The position numbers and the translations under genes were made by a program. DNA of 17,096 nucleotides from Pirellulales bacterium. GTDB taxonomy: Bacteria > Planctomycetota > Planctomycetia > Pirellulales > JAICIG01. Each line of letters begins with the position of its first letter. Position 1 is the stretch's first letter. Of the stretch, positions 2-17,096 are shown piece by piece. The notes under the pieces were generated by a model, which was given only the letters and a program-made list of their open reading frames with translations, did not search any database and was not told where the DNA came from. The stretch is from the NCBI GenBank assembly GCA_025924495.1, contig JAICIG010000137.1, positions 1 to 17,096 on the forward strand, in the 5' to 3' direction.

Positions 2-436
2 AACGTCAAGGAGCACGCGGCCGATGCCGCTGAGGCTATTTGGTCGCAACTCACCGAATTCCCCACGAGCGGAGAGGCCGGGCTGATTCTCAAAGCGAAC
101 ATGCTGCCGAGCGCTACGGCGAGCTTCATGCAAGTTTGCCGCGAGCTGGGTCCGCGGGTTTCGCTATTGGCCCATGCCGGCAATGGAATCGTATTGGCCA
201 GTTTCCCGGACTTTGCGCCGACTGATACCTCCCGCTGGCTCTTGCAACGGCTGCAACCTGCCGCGGTGGCGGCTAGCGGCAATCTGGTCGTATGGTCTTG
301 TGCGGGGGGTGAGTTGACGCGGCAGGCGATTTGGGGCGCCTCGCGCGACGACGCCGAGGTGATGCGAGCCGTGAAACGGCAGTTCGATCCACGAGGTCTG
401 CTCAATCCTGGCCGCTTCGTGTATGGTACACAGTAG
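2..436 (+). CDS. glcE: Glycolate oxidase FAD-binding subunit, GlcE-like (5' end cut off by the window)
   Basis: Only the last 144 codons are visible; the frame is open from base 2 to the TAG at 434. The fragment ends with a signature typical of the C-terminal cap of FAD-linked oxidases of the GlcD/GlcE type (FDPRGLLNPGRFVYG), preceded by a helix VMRAVKRQ. In this family the subunit binds FAD and takes part in oxidising glycolate, or D-lactate and other 2-hydroxy acids, on the cytoplasmic side of the membrane. The GlcF iron-sulfur subunit starts 44 bases downstream, which fits the usual glcD-glcE-glcF order. GlcE is preferred over GlcD because the piece directly precedes GlcF and has the Arg/Gly/Trp-containing strand pattern before the final cap (QAIWGAS). 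A GlcD, or a fused GlcDE protein, cannot be excluded because the FAD-binding half lies outside the window. Confidence 0.8.
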   Translation, partial: NVKEHAADAAEAIWSQLTEFPTSGEAGLILKANMLPSATASFMQVCRELGPRVSLLAHAGNGIVLASFPDFAPTDTSRWLLQRLQPAAVAASGNLVVWSCAGGELTRQAIWGASRDDAEVMRAVKRQFDPRGLLNPGRFVYGTQ

Positions 437-480
437 CCTCGCTTTCTCCGCCCGCCGATCTCGTCTCTTAGAAACCAACG

Positions 481-1845
481 ATGGCCCTCCTTTCAGAAAC
501 GCCCGCGGAACCAGCCCCGGAAGAGGCCGAACCGGCGACACGGCCAGATGCTGCTTCAGCGGCTAATCCCGGCGCCGGCATCGATTACGAGCTGTTTCTC
601 GATTGCGTCCATTGTGGGTTGTGTACGGCGTCGTGCCCCACCTACGTCGAGCTCGGCAACGAGAACGACAGCCCGCGCGGTCGGATTTACCTGATGCGGG
701 CGGTCACCGACGGACGGTTGGAGTTGAATCACGAAGTTCGACGCCATCTCGAACTGTGCCTCGACTGCCGATCGTGCGAAACCGCCTGTCCTTCGGGCGT
801 GCAGTACGGCAAGCTGATCGAGCCGTTTCGCGTGGCCATGGAGCAAACGGCCGAAGGGCCGAAGAAATCGGCCGACTGGTTCCATCGTTGGATCCTATTC
901 GGAGTGTTTCCTTATCCCGAGCGAATGCGCGCCTTGCTGGCGCCGGCGCGGCTCGCGCAGCGGCTGGGATTGATGAAGCTGGTTGAATCGCTCGGTTTGA
1001 CGAGGCTGCTGCCGCCACGACTGCGGCAACTCGTCAACATGCTGCCTCCTCCGGCTAAGGCGGAGCCGCCGCTGCCCGAGTTCTTGCCTGCCAAAGGGGC
1101 GCGGCGAGCCACGGTGGCGCTGTTCACCGGCTGCGTGGCCGATGTGATGTTTCGGCCGACGCATTGGGCCACAGCGCGTGTGCTGCAAGAAAACGGCTGC
1201 GATGTGCACGTGCCGCGCGCGCAGGCCTGCTGCGGCGCCATCCACTTTCATGCGGGCTCGAGCGAGCCGGCGCGCGAGCTGGCCGATAAGAACCTGGCGG
1301 CTTTCAAGCTCGACGAGATCGATGCGATCATCGTCAACGTCGCCGGCTGCGGCGCCATGTTGAAGGACTACGGCCATCATTGGCACGACGTGCGGCAAGC
1401 AGAGCGAGAAAAGTTCGCCGCCAAGATCAAAGACGTCAACGAGTTCCTGGACGAGTTAGGCCTGATTCCTCCTCAGGGAGAAATCCGCCTGACGGCCACT
1501 TATCACGACGCCTGCCACTTGGGCCATGCGCAGAAGATTCGAGAGGCGCCGCGGCGATTGCTGGCGCAGGTGCCGGGGCTCGACCTGCGCGAATTGCCTG
1601 AAACCGAAATCTGCTGCGGCGCCGCGGGCACGTATAACCTGACCGAACCTGAGATGGCCGGCCGTTTAAGTCGCCGCAAGCTCGACAACATTCGCAAGAC
1701 GCAGGCGCGGGCCGTGCTGACCGCCAACGCCGGCTGCCTGCTACAAATCGCCCGGGAGGCAAGGCAACAGGGCCAGCCCCTCTGGATCGCCCATCCAATC
1801 GACCTGCTCGATCTCAGCTATCGCGGCGAGCAGCCGCCGGTGTAA
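481..1845 (+). CDS. glcF: Glycolate oxidase iron-sulfur subunit GlcF
   Basis: This 454-residue protein carries two 4Fe-4S ferredoxin-type motifs near the N-terminus: Cys42, 45, 48, 52 (CVHCGLCTASCP) and Cys93, 96, 99, 103 (CLDCRSCETACP). Two CCG domains (cysteine-rich, DUF224 type) follow, with CCG at 250-252 and 378-380 and partner cysteines in TGCVAD (about 216-221) and YHDACH (about 341-346). This is the layout of GlcF, the electron-transfer subunit that takes electrons from the FAD subunits and passes them to the quinone pool or a related acceptor. The first 34 residues form an Ala/Pro/Glu-rich, probably disordered extension. No clear Shine-Dalgarno sequence precedes the ATG, but no better internal start exists before the first cluster. 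Its position 44 bases after the GlcE-like gene supports an operon. A related lactate or other 2-hydroxy-acid oxidase subunit remains possible. Confidence 0.9.
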   Translation: MALLSETPAEPAPEEAEPATRPDAASAANPGAGIDYELFLDCVHCGLCTASCPTYVELGNENDSPRGRIYLMRAVTDGRLELNHEVRRHLELCLDCRSCETACPSGVQYGKLIEPFRVAMEQTAEGPKKSADWFHRWILFGVFPYPERMRALLAPARLAQRLGLMKLVESLGLTRLLPPRLRQLVNMLPPPAKAEPPLPEFLPAKGARRATVALFTGCVADVMFRPTHWATARVLQENGCDVHVPRAQACCGAIHFHAGSSEPARELADKNLAAFKLDEIDAIIVNVAGCGAMLKDYGHHWHDVRQAEREKFAAKIKDVNEFLDELGLIPPQGEIRLTATYHDACHLGHAQKIREAPRRLLAQVPGLDLRELPETEICCGAAGTYNLTEPEMAGRLSRRKLDNIRKTQARAVLTANAGCLLQIAREARQQGQPLWIAHPIDLLDLSYRGEQPPV

Positions 1846-6984: not shown

Positions 6985-9204
6985 TCAACCTCGCGGCTTG
7001 ACGGCCGCCGTCGTCGGCGCCACCCCTTTCTCGTACGGCGCCGCAGTCGCCTTGCTGCCCACAGGCGCCGCAAGCGGCGGTTCGGGCAGCAACAGCCGCA
7101 GCATGGCGAGCGAACAAGGCTCCAGCGGATACTGCGGCGAATCGATGACGCGCTGCGATTCGTCCTCGGGAATGGCCGTATCCATGACCAATTGCCAGCG
7201 CTGCCCTTCTTCCAGCTCGGGCAGCGTGAAATCGATTTTGGTGGCATGATCGGCATTGAACAACAACAGCAGCGTATCGCCGTTGATCTGCTCGCCATGC
7301 TCGTCGAGATCGACCTCCTGACCGAACAACTCGACGCCGAAGCTGCGCACGAAACTTGTCTGCCAGTCTTCGTCCGACATTTCATGGCCCGAAGTATCGA
7401 GCCAGGCGATATCGAGCGCCTCGCCGCCGTGAATGGCATGGCCGTGAAAGAATCGCCGGCGTTGCAGCACGGGCTGCTCTTTGACAATCGCAATGCACTT
7501 CTGCACGAACGCGAGCAATGATTGCTGCTCCGGCGTCAGATCCCATTTAAGCCAGGTCAGCTCATTGTCCTGGCAGTAGGCGTTGTTGTTGCCCTGCTGC
7601 GTATGGCCAATCTCGTCGCCGGCCAGAATCATCGACACGCCTTGCGAGAAGAGCAGCGTGGCCAGCAAATTTCGCTTCTTCTGTTCGCGCAGCTTGTTGA
7701 TCGCCGGGTCGTCCGTAGGCCCTTCGGCGCCGCAGTTCCAGCTATTGTTGTCCGATGCCCCATCGCGATTCTCTTCGCCATTGGCTTCGTTGTGCTTGTC
7801 GTTGTAAGAGACCAGGTCCTGCAGCGTGAAACCATCGTGGCAGGTGATGAAGTTGACGCTGGCATGCGGGCGGCGGTTGCTCCACTCATAAAGATCGCTC
7901 GAGCCGCAAAACCGCGTGGAGAACTCCGACACCATGCCGCTGTCCCCCTTCCAAAACTTCCGCACGCAGTCGCGATATTTTCCGTTCCACTCAGACCATA
8001 AGGCGGGAAAGTTGCCTACCTGGTAGCCGCCGGCCCCCAGGTCCCACGGCTCGGCAATCAGCTTGACCTGCGAAATGATCGGATCCTGATGGATGATGTC
8101 GAAGAAGGCGCCCAGCTTGTCCACCTCGTGCAGTTCGCGGGCCAGGGTGCTGGCCAAATCGAAGCGGAACCCGTCGATGTGCATGTCGGTGATCCAGTAC
8201 CGCAGACTGTCCATGATTAACTGCAGCACTCGCGGGTTGCGCATATTGAACGTGTTGCCGCAGCCGGTGAAATCCATGTAGTAGCGGGGATCTTCCGGGC
8301 TGACGCGATAGTAATTCGCATTGTCGATGCCGCGGAACGACAGCGTAGGCCCCATGTGATTGCCTTCGGCCGTATGGTTGTAGACCACATCGAGAATCAC
8401 TTCGATGCACGCCGAATGCAGGTTGCGCACCATCGTCTTGAATTCACGAACGGTATCGAGCGGCGTTTCGGCGGCCGAATAGCGGCTGGCCGGAGCAAAA
8501 AAGCCCAGCGTGTTGTAGCCCCAATAGTTGGAGAGCTTCTTGTCCACCAGGTGCCGGTCATCAATGAAGTGATGCACGGGCAACAGCTCGACGGCGGTAA
8601 CTCCCAACTTACGCAGGTAGCTCAGCGCTGCCTCGCAAGTCAATCCCGAATAGGTGCCCCGCATCAACTCCGGCACTTCCTGCTGGAGCTTCGTGAAGCC
8701 TTTCACGTGCATCTCATAGATCAAGGTCTTGTGCCACGGCACGTTAGGCGGGCGGTCGTCTCCCCAAGTAAATGCGGGATCGATCACGGCGGCCAACGGC
8801 GCAAAGGCGGCATTGTCGCGATCATCGAACGACAAATCGGCCGCTTCGTCGCCGATGCGGTAGCCCCACATCTCATCGCTCCAGCGCACGTCGCGCGCGA
8901 TGACTTTCGCGTAGGGATCGAGCACGACCTTCTTTGGATTGAAGCGATGGCCTTGCGCCGGCTCATAGGGGCCATGCACCCGATAGCCATAGAGCTGACC
9001 TGGCCGCGCGTCGGGCAGGTAGCAGTGCCAGACCATGTCGGTCTGCTCCATCATCGCAATGCAGTCCGATTCCTGCTTCGCGTCGACGCTAGCGAACAGA
9101 CACAGTTCCACCTTGGTCGCGGATTCCGAGTAGAGGGTGAAATTCACGCCGCTGCCGTCCCACGTGGCGCCTAACGGATAGGGATGTCCTGGCCAAACTC
9201 TCAT
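6985..9204 (-). CDS. glgX: Glycogen debranching enzyme GlgX / isoamylase-type (GH13)
   Basis: The 739-residue protein begins with a CBM48-type N-terminal domain (about 8-110; GHPYPLGATWDGSGVNFTLYS, YGYRVHGPY) and continues into a GH13 barrel. All four signature regions are present: DVVYNH (272-277), GFRFDLAS with nucleophile Asp349, IAEPWDLG with acid/base Glu385, and TCHDGFT with His456-Asp457. It should hydrolyse alpha-1,6 branches of glycogen or limit dextrins in the cytoplasm. The last 30 or so residues are an Ala/Pro/Lys-rich tail that looks disordered. ATG at 9204 is chosen because AAGGAG (9211-9216) is six bases before it and the family's N-terminus (RVWPGHPYPLG) follows at once; the longer frame up to 9330 adds 42 unrelated residues. 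No other glycogen gene is in the window. Confidence 0.95.
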   Translation of the reverse strand: MRVWPGHPYPLGATWDGSGVNFTLYSESATKVELCLFASVDAKQESDCIAMMEQTDMVWHCYLPDARPGQLYGYRVHGPYEPAQGHRFNPKKVVLDPYAKVIARDVRWSDEMWGYRIGDEAADLSFDDRDNAAFAPLAAVIDPAFTWGDDRPPNVPWHKTLIYEMHVKGFTKLQQEVPELMRGTYSGLTCEAALSYLRKLGVTAVELLPVHHFIDDRHLVDKKLSNYWGYNTLGFFAPASRYSAAETPLDTVREFKTMVRNLHSACIEVILDVVYNHTAEGNHMGPTLSFRGIDNANYYRVSPEDPRYYMDFTGCGNTFNMRNPRVLQLIMDSLRYWITDMHIDGFRFDLASTLARELHEVDKLGAFFDIIHQDPIISQVKLIAEPWDLGAGGYQVGNFPALWSEWNGKYRDCVRKFWKGDSGMVSEFSTRFCGSSDLYEWSNRRPHASVNFITCHDGFTLQDLVSYNDKHNEANGEENRDGASDNNSWNCGAEGPTDDPAINKLREQKKRNLLATLLFSQGVSMILAGDEIGHTQQGNNNAYCQDNELTWLKWDLTPEQQSLLAFVQKCIAIVKEQPVLQRRRFFHGHAIHGGEALDIAWLDTSGHEMSDEDWQTSFVRSFGVELFGQEVDLDEHGEQINGDTLLLLFNADHATKIDFTLPELEEGQRWQLVMDTAIPEDESQRVIDSPQYPLEPCSLAMLRLLLPEPPLAAPVGSKATAAPYEKGVAPTTAAVKPRG

Positions 9205-9313
9205 GGAATACTCCTTATCGCGCAGAGCATCTTTTGAGCGGATTGATCCGGGCGCGCGACCACCCCGGTGGAAAAGCTGGAGACGTGCTAACTGCAAATG
9301 CCGCGCCGCACTC

Positions 9314-9343
9314 ACCTTAGCCCCGCGCAACGAGCGCCGTCAA
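9314..9343 (-). promoter_or_regulatory. Candidate promoter for the glycogen debranching gene
   Basis: On the minus strand TTGACG (9338-9343) and TAAGGT (9314-9319) are separated by 18 bases, about 110 bases before the ATG at 9204. This resembles a sigma-70-type promoter with an imperfect -10. The 280-base gap 9205-9484 holds no gene. Confidence 0.3.
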
Positions 9344-9484: not shown

Positions 9485-10615
9485 TCATTTCAACAGCGGC
9501 TCGAGGATTCTTGCGAAGGCATCGGCCTGGCGCATAAAACCCAGATCTGTCGGATGCGAGCTGTCGACGGTTCCCTCGTTGTCGTCCCCGAGCAGATGAT
9601 CGGCCGGCAGATAATGCAGGCCCTGCACGCCAGCCGCGACGAGCTTCTCGTAGGCAGCCCGAAGTGCAGCGTGGTTCGCCTCGTTGCGCTGCCGCTTTCC
9701 GGCCAGTAGGTGCGTATCGGTGTAGAATCGATCTTCGACCAGCACGATGGGCGTCTGCGGATGCGCCTTGCGCAGCGTTTGCACAAACGGCTCGACGCGC
9801 TCAGTGACTTCCTGTGCGTTCATGTTAGGCAAACAATCGAGCACATACACGGCCGGATCGAGCTCGGCCAAGAGCGTCGCCAGTTCGGGCTCCATCTTGC
9901 CGTTGCCGGAGAACCCGAGATTGATCACCGACCAATCGAAACGCCGCCCCAGGATCGCGCTGTGCACCATGCCGGGACGAGAGGCGCAGCCGCCTTGGGT
10001 AATCGAAGTTCCGTAGAATAGGATCGGCCGCTCGCGCCCAGCCGGCCGCGGATCGGCCTTCGAGAGCTTGCTGTCTTTTGCAATGCCGATCTCGACGCTC
10101 GAAACGCCGTTATACAGCGGCAGATAAAGCAGATACTCGCGGCTTCCCTCAGGCAACCCGCCGACGAGCGCGACTTCGTTTGTCGGCGCCGTCGGGCGTC
10201 CATTGGCCAGCCAGCGCCAACGGCCGCCGCTCTTCACGTACAGATCGAGCCCGCTAACGCCGGTGGCGGGCATGTGAGGCATCGCCAGATTCTCAGAAAT
10301 CAACGTCCAGCGGGCGTGAATCTTTGTAGCGTCGGTCCCAAAGCGGGCGCAAATGCCGGTCGAGTTGCGGCTCAAGCTCCAGACCGGCGGACGCACGACG
10401 CCGTCGGCCTTGCCCGGCAAGCGGTCGTACGGCGCCTTGGTATCGCTCCAGCCTTGCCCTTCCAACGGGAGGCTCTTCAAGTCGTACCACAGCAGCGATC
10501 CATCGGCCGAACTCTTCGCCTGAGCCGGATCGAGCGTTTCGGCGGCTCTCAGCGGCGACGCCGACGCCGAACAGAGTAAAGCCAGAACGAGCGCTCGCGA
10601 CAGTAGGCAGATCAT
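9485..10615 (-). CDS. Exported SGNH/GDSL-family esterase with N-terminal GxDLY module
   Basis: The 376-residue product has a signal peptide (1-24, LALLCSASASPLRAA). Residues about 30-190 form a beta-rich module containing the GxDLY signature (GLDLY at 122-126). A GDSL-like hydrolase domain of the Lipase_GDSL_3 type follows from about 195: GTSITQG with nucleophile Ser204, NLGFSGNGKME with Gly and Asn for the oxyanion hole, PNMN around 263-266, and DSSHPTDLGF with Asp351 and His354 completing the triad. Such enzymes deacylate, often removing acetyl groups from carbohydrates; the substrate here is unknown. GAGGAG (10622-10627) sits six bases before the ATG. It starts only 18 bases after the end of the PIG-L gene, so the two form an operon. 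Export puts this enzyme outside the cytoplasm, unlike its signal-less partner. Confidence 0.88.
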   Translation of the reverse strand: MICLLSRALVLALLCSASASPLRAAETLDPAQAKSSADGSLLWYDLKSLPLEGQGWSDTKAPYDRLPGKADGVVRPPVWSLSRNSTGICARFGTDATKIHARWTLISENLAMPHMPATGVSGLDLYVKSGGRWRWLANGRPTAPTNEVALVGGLPEGSREYLLYLPLYNGVSSVEIGIAKDSKLSKADPRPAGRERPILFYGTSITQGGCASRPGMVHSAILGRRFDWSVINLGFSGNGKMEPELATLLAELDPAVYVLDCLPNMNAQEVTERVEPFVQTLRKAHPQTPIVLVEDRFYTDTHLLAGKRQRNEANHAALRAAYEKLVAAGVQGLHYLPADHLLGDDNEGTVDSSHPTDLGFMRQADAFARILEPLLK

Positions 10616-10633
10616 CAGGTGCTCCTCAAAGTA

Positions 10634-11326
10634 TTAAAGAATGTCTCGCGGGTACTGGTCGACCACCCGTAGCGCCTCGGCGTAGCGAACGCCGCACGTC
10701 TTGCCGCGATAAGCGGCTAGCGTTTCCTTCATTTGCTGCGCGCCGTCAAGCTTGCCTGACTGGTAAGGTTCGTTTCGCACGAGCGCCATGAACTCGCCGA
10801 GCCAATCGATGGCGGCCGGCCAGACTTCGCTGACATCGACGAACGTGTCGGGCTCGAAACCGATCGTATGCCGAGGCCCATTGTCGTACATGTATTGAAA
10901 GCGCGGCCCCTTCACCGGCCGCTCCAATAGCGAGGCGGAGTAGCGCAGAGCAATTTCGCTCAACTGCGAGGCGACGACGTGATCGTCGTGGTGGTCGTGC
11001 CGCCAGAGATAAAGCGCGATGTCAGGCTCGATGTCGGCCACCGCTCGGGCGACGGCCAGCTTGGTCTTGTCGTTGACGTCGAACCGATGCGAGAGGAAAT
11101 CGAGGTAACGCATCTCGACGCCGCGCGCCCGGCAAAGCGCCTTCGTGCCGTCGAGCAGTTCCTGCTGGCGGTTGCCGATCGGCGCCCAGTTGCTATAGTC
11201 GCCGATCAGCGACAGGATCACCACGCGATAATGCTTAGCGACCGCTTGCAGCAAAATGCCTGGCACGCCGAACACGCAGTCGTCGTAATGCGCCCCGATC
11301 GCCAACAAGGTTTTTTCGCGAGCCAT
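10634..11326 (-). CDS. PIG-L family (LmbE-like) deacetylase
   Basis: The 230-residue cytoplasmic protein opens with the metal-binding loop of the PIG-L/LmbE family, AIGAHYDDC, equivalent to the usual AHPDDE: His13, Asp15 and Asp16 are kept. The proline is Tyr14 and the usual glutamate is Cys17. The second motif, LWRHDHHDDHVVAS, supplies the third ligand, probably His116. The family contains zinc-dependent N-deacetylases acting on GlcNAc-type groups in lipids, small glycosides or disaccharides. Asp15, the general base in characterised members, is present, so activity is plausible despite the changed loop. Length is normal. The gene is first in a minus-strand pair with the esterase (18-base gap) and is divergent from the GntR gene across 212 bases, suggesting shared control. 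Confidence 0.88.
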   Translation of the reverse strand: MAREKTLLAIGAHYDDCVFGVPGILLQAVAKHYRVVILSLIGDYSNWAPIGNRQQELLDGTKALCRARGVEMRYLDFLSHRFDVNDKTKLAVARAVADIEPDIALYLWRHDHHDDHVVASQLSEIALRYSASLLERPVKGPRFQYMYDNGPRHTIGFEPDTFVDVSEVWPAAIDWLGEFMALVRNEPYQSGKLDGAQQMKETLAAYRGKTCGVRYAEALRVVDQYPRDIL

Positions 11327-11402
11327 ACCAGCCGGTCCTAGTTTGTTTTGCTACGATCTGCAGGGTCTTGAAGTCTTGCGGCAACATCTCGCCCGCGATC
11401 GT

Positions 11403-11411
11403 GATTGTCAA
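11403..11411. promoter_or_regulatory. Half-site of the putative GntR operator near the deacetylase gene
   Basis: GATTGTCAA matches nine bases of the bottom-strand reading of the palindrome at 11445-11458. A second partial match, GACAATT, lies at 11435-11441. Their spread toward the deacetylase gene would allow control of both divergent units. Confidence 0.35.
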
Positions 11412-11444
11412 GTCGCATGCGAAGCCCGCAATTCGACAATTGCA

Positions 11445-11458
11445 GATTGTTGACAATC
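11445..11458. promoter_or_regulatory. Putative GntR/FCD operator palindrome GATTGT-TG-ACAATC
   Basis: Two six-base arms are perfect inverted repeats around a two-base centre. The shape, an ATTGT...ACAAT dyad, fits operators known for FCD-type GntR regulators. It overlaps possible -35 hexamers (TTGTTG at 11448-11453 or TTGACA at 11450-11455) and lies 81 bases before the GntR start. Binding by the adjacent regulator is inferred. Confidence 0.55.
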
Positions 11459-11475
11459 CACATTCGGCCTATCAT
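11448..11475 (+). promoter_or_regulatory. Candidate promoter of the GntR-cytochrome-DUF1501 operon
   Basis: TATCAT at 11470-11475 may serve as -10. TTGTTG at 11448-11453 gives a 16-base spacer; the better hexamer TTGACA at 11450 gives only 14. The palindrome covers the -35 region, which would suit autorepression. Confidence 0.35.
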
Positions 11476-11538
11476 GCTCGAACCGTGCGGGTCTCGACGC
11501 CCGCCTAGCAACTGCCATGGCACGGGCATTTCAAGCCA

Positions 11539-12207
11539 ATGATAAAACCAAACGCCAAGCCCGCTCCCCGGTCCGGACATGCGAACGGCGCCGCTCCGAC
11601 TACCTCTTTGCCGGCGGTCCGCACGGTGCGCGAACAGGTGACCGATCGGCTGCGCCAAGCGATCTTGTCCGGCCGGTTTCGCGAGGGCCAGCGATTGAAG
11701 GAGACGGAACTGGCCAGCGAACTAGGCGTAAGCCGCGGGCCGATTCGCGATGCCCTGCTGCAGCTCACCAGCGAAGGCGCGCTGGAGTATCAGCCGAATT
11801 GCGGCGTCGAGGTGGCGCCGCCTGCCAACGATGCCGTCCGCAGCGTGTTGGTCTCGCTGCGCCGCACGATCGAAGCTAACGCGTTGCGGCTGGCGTTTCC
11901 GCATCTTTCCGCCGCCGACATCGCCTCCTGGGAAGGAATTCTGGCGGAGCTGCGCGCCGCCTGCGATGCGGAAGATTTTCCGCGGGTCGTCGAGAGCGAC
12001 ATGGCATATCATCGCTGGGTGGTCGAGCAAGCGCGCGAGCCGGAGCTGTTGAGCGTATGGCTGCGAATCGTAATGCGGCTCCGGCTTGTCTATTCGCGCC
12101 ACAAGAGCCTCAAAGAAGTCGCGCCCGAACACGCTCGCGTGGTCAAGGCAGTGCGCCGTGGCAATGTGGAAGCGGCCGTCAAGGCGCTGGAGGCGAACAT
12201 CCGATGA
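11539..12207 (+). CDS. GntR-family transcriptional regulator, FCD (FadR) subfamily
   Basis: The 222-residue protein has a winged helix-turn-helix at about 28-92 (TVREQVTDRLRQAILSGRF, then LASELGVSRGPIRDALLQL). An all-helical FCD ligand-binding domain spans about 98-222. FCD domains usually hold a metal with one Asp and three His. Here Asp154 and His158 (DMAYH) and His198 (EHARVV) are in place, but where the last His is often found the protein reads EANIR with Asn220, two residues before the end. Ligand or metal binding may therefore differ. The TGA overlaps the next start as ATGA, implying translational coupling to the cytochrome gene. The likely operator upstream suggests that it controls its own operon and the divergent deacetylase-esterase pair. 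The effector is unknown. The ribosome binding site is weak. Confidence 0.92.
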   Translation: MIKPNAKPAPRSGHANGAAPTTSLPAVRTVREQVTDRLRQAILSGRFREGQRLKETELASELGVSRGPIRDALLQLTSEGALEYQPNCGVEVAPPANDAVRSVLVSLRRTIEANALRLAFPHLSAADIASWEGILAELRAACDAEDFPRVVESDMAYHRWVVEQAREPELLSVWLRIVMRLRLVYSRHKSLKEVAPEHARVVKAVRRGNVEAAVKALEANIR

Positions 12208-15068
12208 ACGCCGGCCGGCGATTAGCTCTGTGCGCAGGCGTGCTTGCCGCTACTTTGTGCTGCGAAGTTTGCGCTGCAAAGGCTGAGGATGCAAAGGCCG
12301 CAATCGCGGCGGAGAAGTTGTTCGCCGCCGAAATCTATCCGCTCTTCAAAGCACGCTGCTTTGGCTGCCATGGAGATAACGCAGAAGAGGTGAGCGGCGA
12401 GTTGGACCTGCGCAGCCGCGAAGCGGCGCTCCAGGGGGGCGCCAGCGGCGAGGCGGCCCTTGTCCCGGGCAAACCGGAAGAAAGCCCGCTGTTCATTGCC
12501 GTCAGCCGCCGCGATCCTGACCTGGCGATGCCGCCGAAGGAAAACGACAAGCTCTCGGCGAAAGAAATTGAGGCGATTCGAAGTTGGATCGCCTCAGGCG
12601 CGCCATGGCCTTCGGCCGCGCGGCGGGCCGAATTGACGAAGGATGGCTCCTGGAAGCAGGCCGACGGCGTCGCCGTTCGCACCAGCGGAGGACTTTCGCC
12701 GGAATGGACGAATCGCAAATACGCGCCGGCGGGGCTGTGGGCCTATCAGCCCATCACGAAACTTCCAGCGCCGGCAGGATATGGCGGCAAGAACGAAATC
12801 GACGCTTTTATTGAGCAGCGATTGGGGGCGCTGGGCCTGGCGACGGCGCCGGGGGCTGATCGCCTGACGCTGATCCGCCGCGCCACGTTCGATCTGCTCG
12901 GCCTGCCGCCGACGACTGAAGAGGTCGACGCTTTCAGCGCCGATCCCGACGACGACGACCGGGCATTCGCCAACGTGGTCGAACGGCTATTGGCCTCGCC
13001 TCACTATGGCGAGCGGATGGCTCGGCATTGGCTAGACGTGGTCCGCTACGCAGATTCCTCCGGGTTTGCCAACGACTATGAGCGCGGCAATGCCTGGCGC
13101 TACCGCGACTACGTGATCCGCTCTTTCAATGCCGACAAGCCGTACGACCAATTCGTTCGCGAGCAGATCGCCGGCGACGAGATCGATCCGCACAATCCAG
13201 AACTGATTGTGGCCGTTGGTTTCCTGCGTATGGGCCCCTGGGAGCTGACCGGCATGGAAGTACCCAAGGTGGCTCGGCAGCGGTTTCTCGACGACGTCAC
13301 CAACAGCGTGGGCGAGACGTTTCTGGCTCACTCGCTGCAATGCGCACGCTGCCACGATCACAAGTTCGATCCCATCCCGACGCGCGACTATTACGCGATC
13401 CAAGCCTGCTTCGCCACGACTCAGATGGCCGAGCGGCCTGCGGCGTTTCTGCCGCAGGAGAACACGCTCGACGGCTTCCAGGATGAGATTTATCTGCACC
13501 GCTCTCGCCAGCGGCACGAGCAGGCGCTCGAAGAGCTCGATCGGCATTCGATCGATGCGGCGCAGCGCTGGCTGGTCGACAACCAATTGAACGCCACCGA
13601 GTTCGAGCAGGCGCTCGAAGAAATCTCGACTCGTAAGCGGGCAGGCGCCAAAATTCGCGGTCGATACGATCAAGCGCGAGCGCTGATGCTGAAGCGCGGC
13701 ATCGCAGAATCCGAGATCCCGCCGCGATTCGCCGGTCTGTCGCCGGAGCAGATTGGAGTGGATCGCATCGCGCGAAAAGGGCTGGAGCGATTGGCCTGGG
13801 AATTAGATCGCTATCGGCCGTTCGCCTTCTCGGTCTACGACGGACCGACGCTGCAACTGACTTCGGTCACGGCGCCGCAACGTCTGCCGAAGGACCTCGC
13901 GCAAGGCGAGCTGGAACGAACGTGCATTCTGGCGGGGGGCGATCCCTTTTCGCCCGCCCAGCCCGTTTCTCCCGGCGTGCTCAGCGCCGTCGGCGCGATT
14001 CCCCAAGCGAAGATTCCTGCGGAAGCATCGGGCCGGCGTCTTGCCTTGGCCGAGTGGATTGCCGACCCGCAGCATCCGCTGACGAGCCGCGTGATCGTCA
14101 ACCGCGTCTGGCAGTGGCACTTTGGCCAGGCTTTGGCCGAAAACCCCAACAACTTCGGTTCGACCGGCAAACCGCCGACTCATCCGGAACTGCTCGACTG
14201 GCTGGCCGCCTCGCTCATCGAGCGCGGCTGGTCGCTCAAGCAATTGCATCGCACGATCATGGCTTCGGCCGCCTACCGTCGCTCGTGCGAACATCGCGAT
14301 CGCAAGGCGCTCGCCGAACTTGATCCGACCGGTTCCAGCTACGCCGTATTCAGGCCGCGACGCCTCGCCGCCGAGGAACTGCGCGACGGCATGCTCCGCG
14401 TGTCGGGCGAGTTGAACGTGGCGCTGGGCGGCGCGCCGGTGCGTCCGGAAATCAACCTCGAAGCCGCATTACAGCCGCGGCAAGTGATGGGCACGCTGGC
14501 CGCGGCCTGGAAGCCCAGCCCACGGCCGCAAGACCGCCATCGCCGTTCGATCTACGCGCTGAAGTTGCGTGGACTGCGCGACCCGTTCTACGAAGTCTTC
14601 AATGAGCCGAGTCCCGACCTGTCGTGCGAGCGCCGCGAAGCCTCGACCGTTACTCCGCAAGTCTTCAGCTTGTTCAACGGCCAGGCGACCTACGATCGAG
14701 CGGTGGCGCTGGCCGCGCTCGCGCTCAGAGTCGCACGCGATGAGAATGCCGCGGTGCAGGCGATCTATCGCCGCGCCTTCGGCCGCTCTGCGACGGCCGA
14801 AGAGGCACAGGCGGCCGTCAACCACTGGCGCCGGATGACGGCACGACACGAGAAGTTGTCGTTCGCCAAGGCTGACCGCCCGCGCGAGGTCGTCCGAGAA
14901 ACTATCGAGGAGAATACCGGCACGAAGTTCACCTTTGCGGAGCCGCTCGACGAATATGCCGAATTCACGCCCGACGCGGAGTTCGCCGACGTTGACGCTC
15001 GCACTCGCGGGCTGGCGGAGCTGTGTCTGGCGATCTTCAACTCGAACGAGTTCGCATTTGTATATTGA
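12204..15068 (+). CDS. Planctomycete cytochrome c-like protein with PSCyt1, DUF1549 and DUF1553 (PSD1) domains
   Basis: The 954-residue product has a signal peptide (about 1-25, ALCAGVLAATLCCEVCAAKA). Next is a PSCyt1 cytochrome-like domain (about 35-135) with haem motif CFGCH at 52-56 and a possible axial Met109 in AMPP. DUF1549/PSCyt2 (about 195-405) contains RHWLDVVRYADSSGF and a second CxxCH, CARCH at 380-384, inside the typical block CARCHDHKFDPIPTRDYY. DUF1553/PSD1 covers about 605-945 (ADPQHPLTSRVIVNRVWQ, PPTHPELLDWLA). A charged helical linker lies at 425-535. Two haems bound in the periplasm are expected. Family function is not established; a role with DUF1501 in handling complex substrates has been suggested. 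The start at 12204 is set by the ATGA overlap with the GntR gene and the signal peptide; the longer open frame from 12057 is overlap only. DUF1501 follows after 13 bases. Confidence 0.93.
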   Translation: MNAGRRLALCAGVLAATLCCEVCAAKAEDAKAAIAAEKLFAAEIYPLFKARCFGCHGDNAEEVSGELDLRSREAALQGGASGEAALVPGKPEESPLFIAVSRRDPDLAMPPKENDKLSAKEIEAIRSWIASGAPWPSAARRAELTKDGSWKQADGVAVRTSGGLSPEWTNRKYAPAGLWAYQPITKLPAPAGYGGKNEIDAFIEQRLGALGLATAPGADRLTLIRRATFDLLGLPPTTEEVDAFSADPDDDDRAFANVVERLLASPHYGERMARHWLDVVRYADSSGFANDYERGNAWRYRDYVIRSFNADKPYDQFVREQIAGDEIDPHNPELIVAVGFLRMGPWELTGMEVPKVARQRFLDDVTNSVGETFLAHSLQCARCHDHKFDPIPTRDYYAIQACFATTQMAERPAAFLPQENTLDGFQDEIYLHRSRQRHEQALEELDRHSIDAAQRWLVDNQLNATEFEQALEEISTRKRAGAKIRGRYDQARALMLKRGIAESEIPPRFAGLSPEQIGVDRIARKGLERLAWELDRYRPFAFSVYDGPTLQLTSVTAPQRLPKDLAQGELERTCILAGGDPFSPAQPVSPGVLSAVGAIPQAKIPAEASGRRLALAEWIADPQHPLTSRVIVNRVWQWHFGQALAENPNNFGSTGKPPTHPELLDWLAASLIERGWSLKQLHRTIMASAAYRRSCEHRDRKALAELDPTGSSYAVFRPRRLAAEELRDGMLRVSGELNVALGGAPVRPEINLEAALQPRQVMGTLAAAWKPSPRPQDRHRRSIYALKLRGLRDPFYEVFNEPSPDLSCERREASTVTPQVFSLFNGQATYDRAVALAALALRVARDENAAVQAIYRRAFGRSATAEEAQAAVNHWRRMTARHEKLSFAKADRPREVVRETIEENTGTKFTFAEPLDEYAEFTPDAEFADVDARTRGLAELCLAIFNSNEFAFVY

Positions 15069-15081
15069 ACGAGGTGCTGCA

Positions 15082-16491
15082 GTGACATATTCGACGCGGC
15101 GCGATTTTCTGCTCGGCGCGGGGGGCTCGCTGGCTGGCATCGCGTTGGCGGCGCTGTTGGCGGAAGACGTTCCAGCGAATGCAACCGAGAGGGCGGCCTC
15201 GCCGCTGGCGCCCAAAACCAGCCATCTGCCAGCAAAGGCCAAGCGCTGTATCTTCCTCACGATGGAAGGGGGCCCAAGCCATATTGACACGTTCGATCCA
15301 AAGCCCGCTCTGGCGCGATTGCACCTGAAAGAATTCGTTCGCGAGGGTCAGAGCAAATCGGCCATGGAAAGCGGCAAGCGATACTATGTGCAAAGTCCGT
15401 TCACATTTCGCAAAGCCGGCCAATCCGGCGCCGACATGGCCGACAACTGGCGGCATCTGGCCGAGTGCGCCGACGAGATTTGCTTTTATCGCGGCTGTCA
15501 GGTCGATTCGGTCAATCACCCGACCGCCATGTACCAGATGAATACGGGCAACCGCTTCGGCGGCGACCCGGGCATCGGCGCTTGGGTCACGTACGGTCTC
15601 GGTTCGCTAAACGCCAACTTGCCGGGCTTTATCGTGCTGCCCGAGGTCACCTATCCGCAAGGCGGCGCGGTCAACTGGAGCAATGGCTTTCTGCCTGCCG
15701 CCTTTCAAGGCACGCCGCTGCGCGCCAAAGGCTCGCCCATTCTCGATCTCAACCCGCCGGAGGGCATCTCGCCGGAACACCAACGAGCGAATCTCGATTT
15801 TCTGGCGGAGCTGAATCGCAAGCATCAGCAACAACATCCGTGGCACGATGAACTGGCGGCTCGCATGGAGAATTACGAGCTGGCCTTTCGCATGCAGATG
15901 GAAACGCCGGGGCTGCTCGATCTGTCCGCCGAGGGAGAAAACACGCTGGACAGCTACGGCGTCGGCCGCGATCCGACCGATGCCTTCGGCCGCAAGTGCC
16001 TGTTGGCGCGACGATTGATTGAGCAAGGGGTGCGTTTCGTGCAACTGTATCACGGCACGTGGGACTCGCACGATTTCATCGAACGGGCGCATGGCAACCT
16101 GGTTCGCCAGGTCGATCAGCCGATAGCAGCGCTGCTGGCCGACTTGCGCGAGCGAGGACTGCTAGACGAGACGCTGGTGGTCTGGTGCGGCGAATTCGGC
16201 CGCACGCCCGACAACGGCGTTCGCGGCGGCACGGCGTATGGCCGCGACCACAACCCCAAAGCCATGACGATCTGGTTGGCCGGCGGCGGCGTGAAAGCCG
16301 GGCACACGATCGGCGCCACCGATGAGCTTGGCGCCGAAGCGGTCGAGTGCGTGCACCACGTCCGCGATCTGCATGTTACGCTGTTGCGGCTGCTGGGACT
16401 CGACGACAATAAGCTCACCTACCATCACGGCGGCCGCTTCAAGCAGCTTTCGCAATTCGGCGGGCAGCCGATCAAGGAACTGATCGCCTGA
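15082..16491 (+). CDS. DUF1501 protein with Tat signal
   Basis: The 469-residue protein begins with a twin-arginine signal: STRRDFLLGAGG (4-15) followed by a hydrophobic stretch (16-26), so it is probably exported folded, perhaps with a cofactor or metal. The body has DUF1501 blocks that resemble the alkaline-phosphatase/sulfatase fold: FLTMEGGPSHIDTFDPKP (58-75), LYHGTWDSHDF, VVWCGEFGRTPDNG, GRDHNPKAMTIWLAGGG, and the C-terminal HVRDLHVTLLRLLGLD and KELIA. No enzyme activity is proven for the family. The start is GTG at 15082, supported by GAGG (15071-15074) and by the Tat motif directly behind it; the longer frame from 14935 overlaps the cytochrome gene. The 13-base gap shows co-transcription with the DUF1549/DUF1553 gene, the usual planctomycete pairing. 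Confidence 0.93.
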   Translation: MTYSTRRDFLLGAGGSLAGIALAALLAEDVPANATERAASPLAPKTSHLPAKAKRCIFLTMEGGPSHIDTFDPKPALARLHLKEFVREGQSKSAMESGKRYYVQSPFTFRKAGQSGADMADNWRHLAECADEICFYRGCQVDSVNHPTAMYQMNTGNRFGGDPGIGAWVTYGLGSLNANLPGFIVLPEVTYPQGGAVNWSNGFLPAAFQGTPLRAKGSPILDLNPPEGISPEHQRANLDFLAELNRKHQQQHPWHDELAARMENYELAFRMQMETPGLLDLSAEGENTLDSYGVGRDPTDAFGRKCLLARRLIEQGVRFVQLYHGTWDSHDFIERAHGNLVRQVDQPIAALLADLRERGLLDETLVVWCGEFGRTPDNGVRGGTAYGRDHNPKAMTIWLAGGGVKAGHTIGATDELGAEAVECVHHVRDLHVTLLRLLGLDDNKLTYHHGGRFKQLSQFGGQPIKELIA

Positions 16492-16531: not shown

Positions 16532-16547
16532 GCCGTCCCAAAACGGC
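16532..16547 (+). terminator. Weak hairpin between the DUF1501 gene and the next PSCyt1 gene
   Basis: GCCGT and ACGGC form a five-pair stem around CCCAAA, 40 bases after the DUF1501 stop, with A-rich sequence before it and GATTTGTT after it. The stem is short, so termination would be partial at best. Confidence 0.3.
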
Positions 16548-16577: not shown

Positions 16578-17096
16578 ATGCAGTTGATCATGCCGCTTTG
16601 TCTCGCTCTTCGACGCCCGCCGCTCGCTTGTCTCGCTCTGCTAGCGATCGCCTCGGGCGCTAGCTTTGCCGAAGAACCGCCGGCTCGCGTCGAATTCAAT
16701 CGACAAATCCGGCCGATTCTGTCCGACAATTGCTTCGCCTGCCACGGACCCGACGCCAATCACCGAGAAGCGGAACTGCGGCTGGATACCGCCGAGGGAG
16801 CGACGGCCGATCTGGGCGGGCATCAAGCAGTTCAGCCGGGCAAGCCGAACGAGAGCGAACTGCTGCGACGCATTACTTCAGCCGATGCCGACGAGCGGAT
16901 GCCGCCGACGGAGTCGAGTAAGAAGCTGACCGACGAGCAAATCGATCTCGTTCGCCGCTGGATCGCCGAGGGCGCTGAGTATCAGCCGCATTGGTCGTAC
17001 CTGCCGCCCAGGCGGAGCCCGCCGCCGGAAGTCGGTGCAAGCAATTGGCCTGTCGGTACGATTGATCGGTTTTTACTCCATCGACTGCAACAAGAA
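16578..17096 (+). CDS. Second PSCyt1/DUF1549-type cytochrome protein (3' end beyond the window)
   Basis: The frame is open from ATG 16578 to the window edge, 173 codons. A signal peptide (about 1-31, ending ASGASFA) precedes a PSCyt1 domain: VEFNRQIRPILSDNCFACHG with haem motif Cys52-Cys55-His56, the conserved ELRLDTAEGA, a possible axial Met in ERMPP, and LVRRWIAEGAEYQPHW. The last visible residues (TIDRFLLHRLQQE) match the start of DUF1549. The full protein is expected to be of the same type as the one at 12204-15068, but the two PSCyt1 domains differ clearly, so this is not a recent duplication. It lies 86 bases after the DUF1501 gene, possibly beginning another cytochrome-DUF1501 pair. 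ATG at 16590 is an alternative start; neither has a strong ribosome binding site. Confidence 0.88.
   Translation, partial: MQLIMPLCLALRRPPLACLALLAIASGASFAEEPPARVEFNRQIRPILSDNCFACHGPDANHREAELRLDTAEGATADLGGHQAVQPGKPNESELLRRITSADADERMPPTESSKKLTDEQIDLVRRWIAEGAEYQPHWSYLPPRRSPPPEVGASNWPVGTIDRFLLHRLQQE

Follow-up and report, generated by a model that had tools for sequence, protein, structure and literature searches.

A probably autoregulated gntR-PSCyt-DUF1501 operon and its predicted operator in a Pirellulales bacterium

The window examined here, the whole 17,096-nucleotide stretch of contig JAICIG010000137.1 (assembly GCA_025924495.1) from a Pirellulales bacterium, carries a three-gene operon on its forward strand, consisting of a GntR/FCD (FadR-subfamily) regulator (11539-12207; PF00392 and PF07729), a PSCyt1-DUF1549-DUF1553 protein (12204-15068; Pfam), and a DUF1501 protein (15082-16491; Pfam DUF1501, GTG start). 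The ATG of the PSCyt gene at 12204 overlaps the gntR stop codon as ATGA, and 13 nt separate PSCyt from DUF1501. A terminator-like hairpin, scored on both strands, is located 3' of DUF1501 (16532-16547, plus strand) and precedes a second PSCyt1 gene; the operon therefore probably ends at DUF1501. This second gene lies on the same strand, begins at about 16578 (about 87 bases past DUF1501), and runs out of the window at 17096. Upstream, a 212-nt intergenic region with one full dyad inside separates gntR from a divergent PIG-L gene, which is followed by an SGNH esterase gene. The five open reading frames (ORFs), their coordinates, the ATGA overlap, the 18- and 13-base gaps, and the palindrome described in the first-pass annotation were all borne out by the ORF and Pfam analyses. 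The operon proposed there is real and recurs among relatives, in both Planctomycetota and Verrucomicrobiota.

The regulator scored 67.1 bits against PF00392 (cut-off 27) and 64.8 bits against PF07729 (cut-off 24.3), which places both the helix-turn-helix (HTH) and the FCD domain; the nearest solved chains by profile are 3sxy and 3fms. Residues D154, H158, and H198 are invariant in 30/30 aligned GntR sequences and align with the Asp/His residues of 3sxy; together with a third His, these may be the ligands of the Asp-His metal site of the FCD domain. According to a survey of the FadR subfamily, its members recognize TKGT/ACMA palindromes, the GntR and UxuR groups being among those with a 2-nt spacing (PMC4494728). 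A palindromic motif of the TKGT-N-ACMA type is also present, as a predicted and recurrent site, upstream of the regulator described here.

The palindrome GATTGTTGACAATC (11445-11458) is part of a longer 22-bp dyad, TGCAGATTGTTGACAATCCACA (11441-11462, no strand), whose core reads TTGT-NN-ACAA. For comparison, GntR relatives were taken from two sets. For the first, public genomes were scanned with a profile, which gave 74 loci, and the nearest 46 were used (L001-L045 and L051, one of them under the score limit); the second came from 396 genomes of one order, 19 of which held a match at E 1e-40, and 17 stretches were taken, two duplicating the first set. A matrix was built from 16 sites at other PSCyt loci, excluding the window, one duplicate, and one divergent site. 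With this matrix from other genomes alone, the window dyad scored 30.4 bits, against 4.0 bits for the runner-up in the window and 15.7 bits for the top hit over 40 whole-window Markov copies. The first-pass annotation had suggested both the palindrome and additional half-sites for GntR; the palindrome held up, and the half-sites did not, the next place within the intergenic gap scoring -4.5 bits. The consensus derived from site counts is TGTARATTGTYRACAATCTACA.

The motif also recurs upstream of GntR relatives. TTGT-N(0-4)-ACAA was found at 29 of 55 places versus 1.04 expected from mononucleotide shuffles, a count that omitted ten loci for want of an anchor motif and still contained two duplicates among the 55. 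Over 61 distinct loci, including the window, a recount placed the core upstream of the regulator in 34. In this recount, TTGTNNACAA was present in 19/24 loci with PSCyt downstream, and in 17/20 loci whose downstream PSCyt exceeds 470 bits; in the three misses among these close-PSCyt loci, the sites differ from the core at one base and score 25.5, 19.7, and 5.8 bits. Elsewhere in the sequence of the 61 loci, 899 kb in all, there are 27 TTGTNNACAA sites, some of which precede other genes. Matrix score and recurrence thus strengthen the earlier proposal, and the 22-bp dyad is very probably the GntR operator.

The dyad, which encloses a TTGACA box, is 114 nt away from the start codon of PIG-L and 76 nt away from that of gntR. 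A site upstream of gntR at such a distance is open to an activator, so GntR might instead be an activator, or a dual regulator, which would bind the dyad only with its ligand present and thereby turn on the operon. We regard this as rather improbable, since most characterised FadR-subfamily proteins are repressors and a TTGACA box within the dyad, although paired with a poor -10 element, is in keeping with repression.

The target range of the regulator was surveyed in 18 whole genomes holding the gntR-PSCyt operon, where the core motif ATTGTYRACAAT occurred 32 times, and the pattern read backwards twice. Seventeen of the 32 sites, spread over 16 genomes, directly precede the operon (four assigned by coordinates, 13 by context), which documents a preference of the predicted operator for this position; they score 21-35 bits where scored. 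The other 15, with scores of 6.6-22 bits, fall within frames that extend from stop to stop over 268 residues or more. These were examined further because such frames are unproven genes and some gntR-preceding sites also overlap frames: 11 lie past residue 200 of the frame, and three of the remaining four lie within Pfam domains. The only clear second target to which operator-like sites pointed in the 18 genomes was another gntR-PSCyt locus in G408, a genome whose two operons (L177, L182) each have their own dyad. Because the sites concentrate before gntR-PSCyt and the others lie in long frames, GntR most likely has one main target, its own operon. An unusual arrangement was seen at L138 (G394), where a GntR relative lies between two opposite-strand PSCyt genes with a DUF1501 gene behind each, and a TTGTATACAA dyad is within the stop-to-stop frame of the GntR relative.

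Across the gap, the PIG-L/LmbE-type deacetylase (10634-11326, minus strand; Pfam PIG-L) and the SGNH esterase (9485-10615, minus strand; Pfam GxDLY N-terminal domain and Lipase_GDSL_3) are separated by 18 nt. No signal peptide was seen by eye in the PIG-L protein, which missed the BshB1 NCBIfam equivalog cut-off (64.9 vs 182.5 bits) and is related to chains 1uan, 6p2t, and 2ixd; the SGNH esterase has a hydrophobic N-terminus resembling a Sec signal by eye, and its nearest solved chain is 4lhs, an uncharacterised protein. The first-pass annotation had joined all five genes into one regulon handling an acylated substrate, and had proposed a gene-neighbourhood search for the five-gene set. When this search was run, using phmmer with the window's PIG-L and SGNH proteins (E 1e-5 and 1e-4), relatives of the operon did not adjoin PIG-L or SGNH genes: none were found near 23 other PSCyt-bearing loci, and in 20 of these the sequence upstream of GntR extends for 1.6 kb or more. 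Close orthologues of PIG-L (58-76% identity) occur in 12/396 genomes, and GntR, SGNH, and the TTGTNNACAA site are each absent from all 12 orthologue loci; three of these loci have PSCyt or DUF1501 genes, without GntR. SGNH relatives (E 1e-130) occur in 20/392 genomes. The five-gene neighbourhood is thus not conserved among the loci compared, and by the refuting condition set in the first-pass annotation the regulon gains no support beyond this one locus; the support for an acylated substrate is limited to proximity and the gene families themselves.

A narrower version of the idea is that, in this lineage, one dyad serves the GntR operon as well as PIG-L-SGNH, all five proteins working on one acylated substrate. 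The divergent layout with one dyad in the gap fits such a divergon, and single sites of FadR-subfamily divergons tend towards mid-gap (PMC4494728). PIG-L (89%) and SGNH (80%) relatives are also found on 3604-base contigs from one source, and because these contigs are equal in length, a near relative may have kept the two genes together; likewise, GntR (53%) and SGNH (68%) relatives, both named Pirellulaceae, are on 200724-base contigs and probably share one, whether near each other or not. GntR relatives at 76-93% identity exist in the protein database, with loci outside the neighbourhood comparison, and the pairing may be a recent and local one. Against the divergon stand the two neighbourhood counts above, and the fact that the four genomes with both GntR and PIG-L (G005, G006, G020, G050) and the four with both SGNH and PIG-L (G037, G308, G374, G396) hold the members on separate contigs. 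We therefore consider it unlikely. The account we favour, and hold to be fairly probable together with autoregulation of the operon, is that PIG-L and SGNH form a neighbouring unit in a lineage-specific position, outside the conserved circuit, although the lone dyad, lying between two divergent genes, might also act on PIG-L in this particular lineage. Further along the minus strand, just downstream of the SGNH gene, is a GlgX-type glycogen debranching enzyme (6985-9330; 1036 bits vs cut-off 641). The first part of the window (2-1845) encodes the C-terminal end of an FAD-linked oxidase and then a GlcF-like iron-sulfur protein, which scores under the GlcF cut-off (292.7 vs 333 bits).

In a tree of 65 GntR sequences, the 25 PSCyt-linked ones cluster, yet not as one clade, and the position of the window GntR is poorly supported. 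Judged from one Pfam-scanned representative per cluster, some sister regulators adjoin sugar-oxidation-like sets (RhaT-like, aldose epimerase, ADH, SDR, ALDH, and MR/MLE), and others adjoin genes resembling coenzyme A ester metabolism. These neighbourhoods and the known ligands of the subfamily suggest, by analogy, that the inducer is probably a carboxylate, e.g., a sugar acid. GntR relatives beside sugar-oxidation-like sets were seen at L137, L140, L016, and L004; L016 and L004 carry the dyad core upstream of the regulator, and L137 carries it at another position.

The PSCyt protein has a Sec-like N-terminus by eye. Its 954-aa form includes two CXXCH motifs for c-type haem binding, the first (residues 52-56) nearly invariant and the second (380-384) invariant in 17/17, and its cytochrome part gives a profile match to FoxE and a weak fold match to the hydrazine synthase alpha subunit. 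The PSCyt1-DUF1549-DUF1553 gene followed by DUF1501 makes up a PSCyt-DUF1501 pair by Pfam. According to He et al. 2017 (PMC5615132), PSCyt2 and PSCyt3 genes are usually beside two uncharacterised gene families and often near sulfatases, and nothing was known of the functions of PSCyt, DUF1549, and DUF1553. Proteins of this kind can be highly abundant: in Rhodopirellula baltica, two domains of the PSCyt/DUF1549/DUF1553 type were counted at 41 copies each (PMC2754498). The DUF1501 protein starts with a twin-arginine translocation (Tat)-like RRDFL by eye. In hhalign, DUF1501 matched the alkaline-phosphatase/sulfatase superfamily at 90.9% with E 1.2e-6 over 96 columns, covering the profile core; its PDB profile matches are weak alone (best E 0.049). 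On profile evidence, DUF1501 likely belongs to this superfamily.

One can imagine an inducible exported redox-plus-hydrolase pair, in which the PSCyt protein, with its two haem motifs, and its sulfatase-superfamily partner are switched on by a ligand (a sugar acid, for instance) for oxidative or desulfating carbohydrate breakdown outside the cytoplasm; we put this forward as a tentative and, at present, doubtful suggestion. If it holds, the ligand of this GntR would lead directly to what the large, unexplained PSCyt and DUF1501 families do.

Taken as a whole, a self-contained, autoregulated gntR-PSCyt-DUF1501 operon, switched by GntR at the dyad, is the explanation we find reasonably probable. 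As for the mechanism, we infer that a GntR/FCD dimer would bind the 22-bp dyad in front of gntR and, acting by repression rather than activation, block transcription of gntR-PSCyt-DUF1501. This block would last until GntR is released by a small molecule, which is probably a carboxylate (a sugar acid, for instance), and the released operon would yield more regulator together with the exported PSCyt protein, bearing two c-type haem motifs, and the DUF1501 protein, probably exported by Tat. PSCyt and DUF1501 might together process some substrate outside the cytoplasm.

Several results weigh against parts of this explanation. The TTGTNNACAA motif is present in 15/37 GntR loci without PSCyt in the 61-locus recount, which makes it a mark of the regulator family rather than of the PSCyt module. 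The tree requires about eight gains or losses of the PSCyt partner, although the shuffle mean is 20.3. The score ranges of gntR-preceding and other ATTGTYRACAAT sites touch; the exact motif before the operon is absent in two of the 18 genomes, where a variant (G004) and a weak site (G020) were found; and the last of the in-frame sites (G008, L172, position 4028; 22.0 bits) precedes the domain of a DUF885 protein, so that it could be upstream of the DUF885 gene if a later start codon is used, and this genome might then have a second target. A search of 11300-11600 gave no sigma-70-type promoter, the best relaxed match being 9/12. As for the exported proteins, no clear fold was obtained for DUF1549/DUF1553 in the fold comparison, the DUF1501 model is poor (mean predicted local distance difference test score, pLDDT, 55.9), and Foldseek with this model gave no match at E 0.001.

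The several changes of partner on the tree, and the occurrence of the motif before regulators beside catabolic gene sets, would also fit a GntR left over from sugar-acid catabolism, a former regulator that the PSCyt-DUF1501 pair has captured and that is now devoid of a regulatory role. The regulator frame is intact, and the dyad recurs before gntR-PSCyt across two phyla, while unused sites are expected to decay, which makes such a remnant very improbable. A regulator whose defined operator serves essentially a single target would offer a tractable entry to these families, and the releasing ligand may reveal the substrate class. No description of a GntR-controlled PSCyt-DUF1501 operon was found in the open-access literature searched.

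Compared with the FadR/FCD groups with 2-nt spacing (UxuR, GntR, HypR, and PrpR), the regulator of this window shares the HTH and FCD domains, the palindromic TKGT/ACMA operator, and the site before its own gene, and differs in its predicted target, which is the PSCyt-DUF1501 operon instead of a pathway with a known substrate; in the FadR-subfamily survey, the table of analysed regulators does not include Planctomycetes (PMC4494728). With the alkaline-phosphatase/sulfatase superfamily, DUF1501 has the C-terminal core in common by profile, while a likeness in fold rests on a poor model; the C-x-P-S-R motif of sulfatases, whose C and P are invariant in the sulfatase set, is not visible by eye in the DUF1501 alignment. 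The PSCyt-DUF1501 pairs of Planctomycetes and Verrucomicrobia share the PSCyt domain set with this operon, and the subset represented by the window adds a dedicated GntR and a predicted operator, which differs from the PSD1/PSC2 gene of R. baltica that a 2009 study linked to an extracytoplasmic function (ECF) sigma factor instead (PMC2754498).
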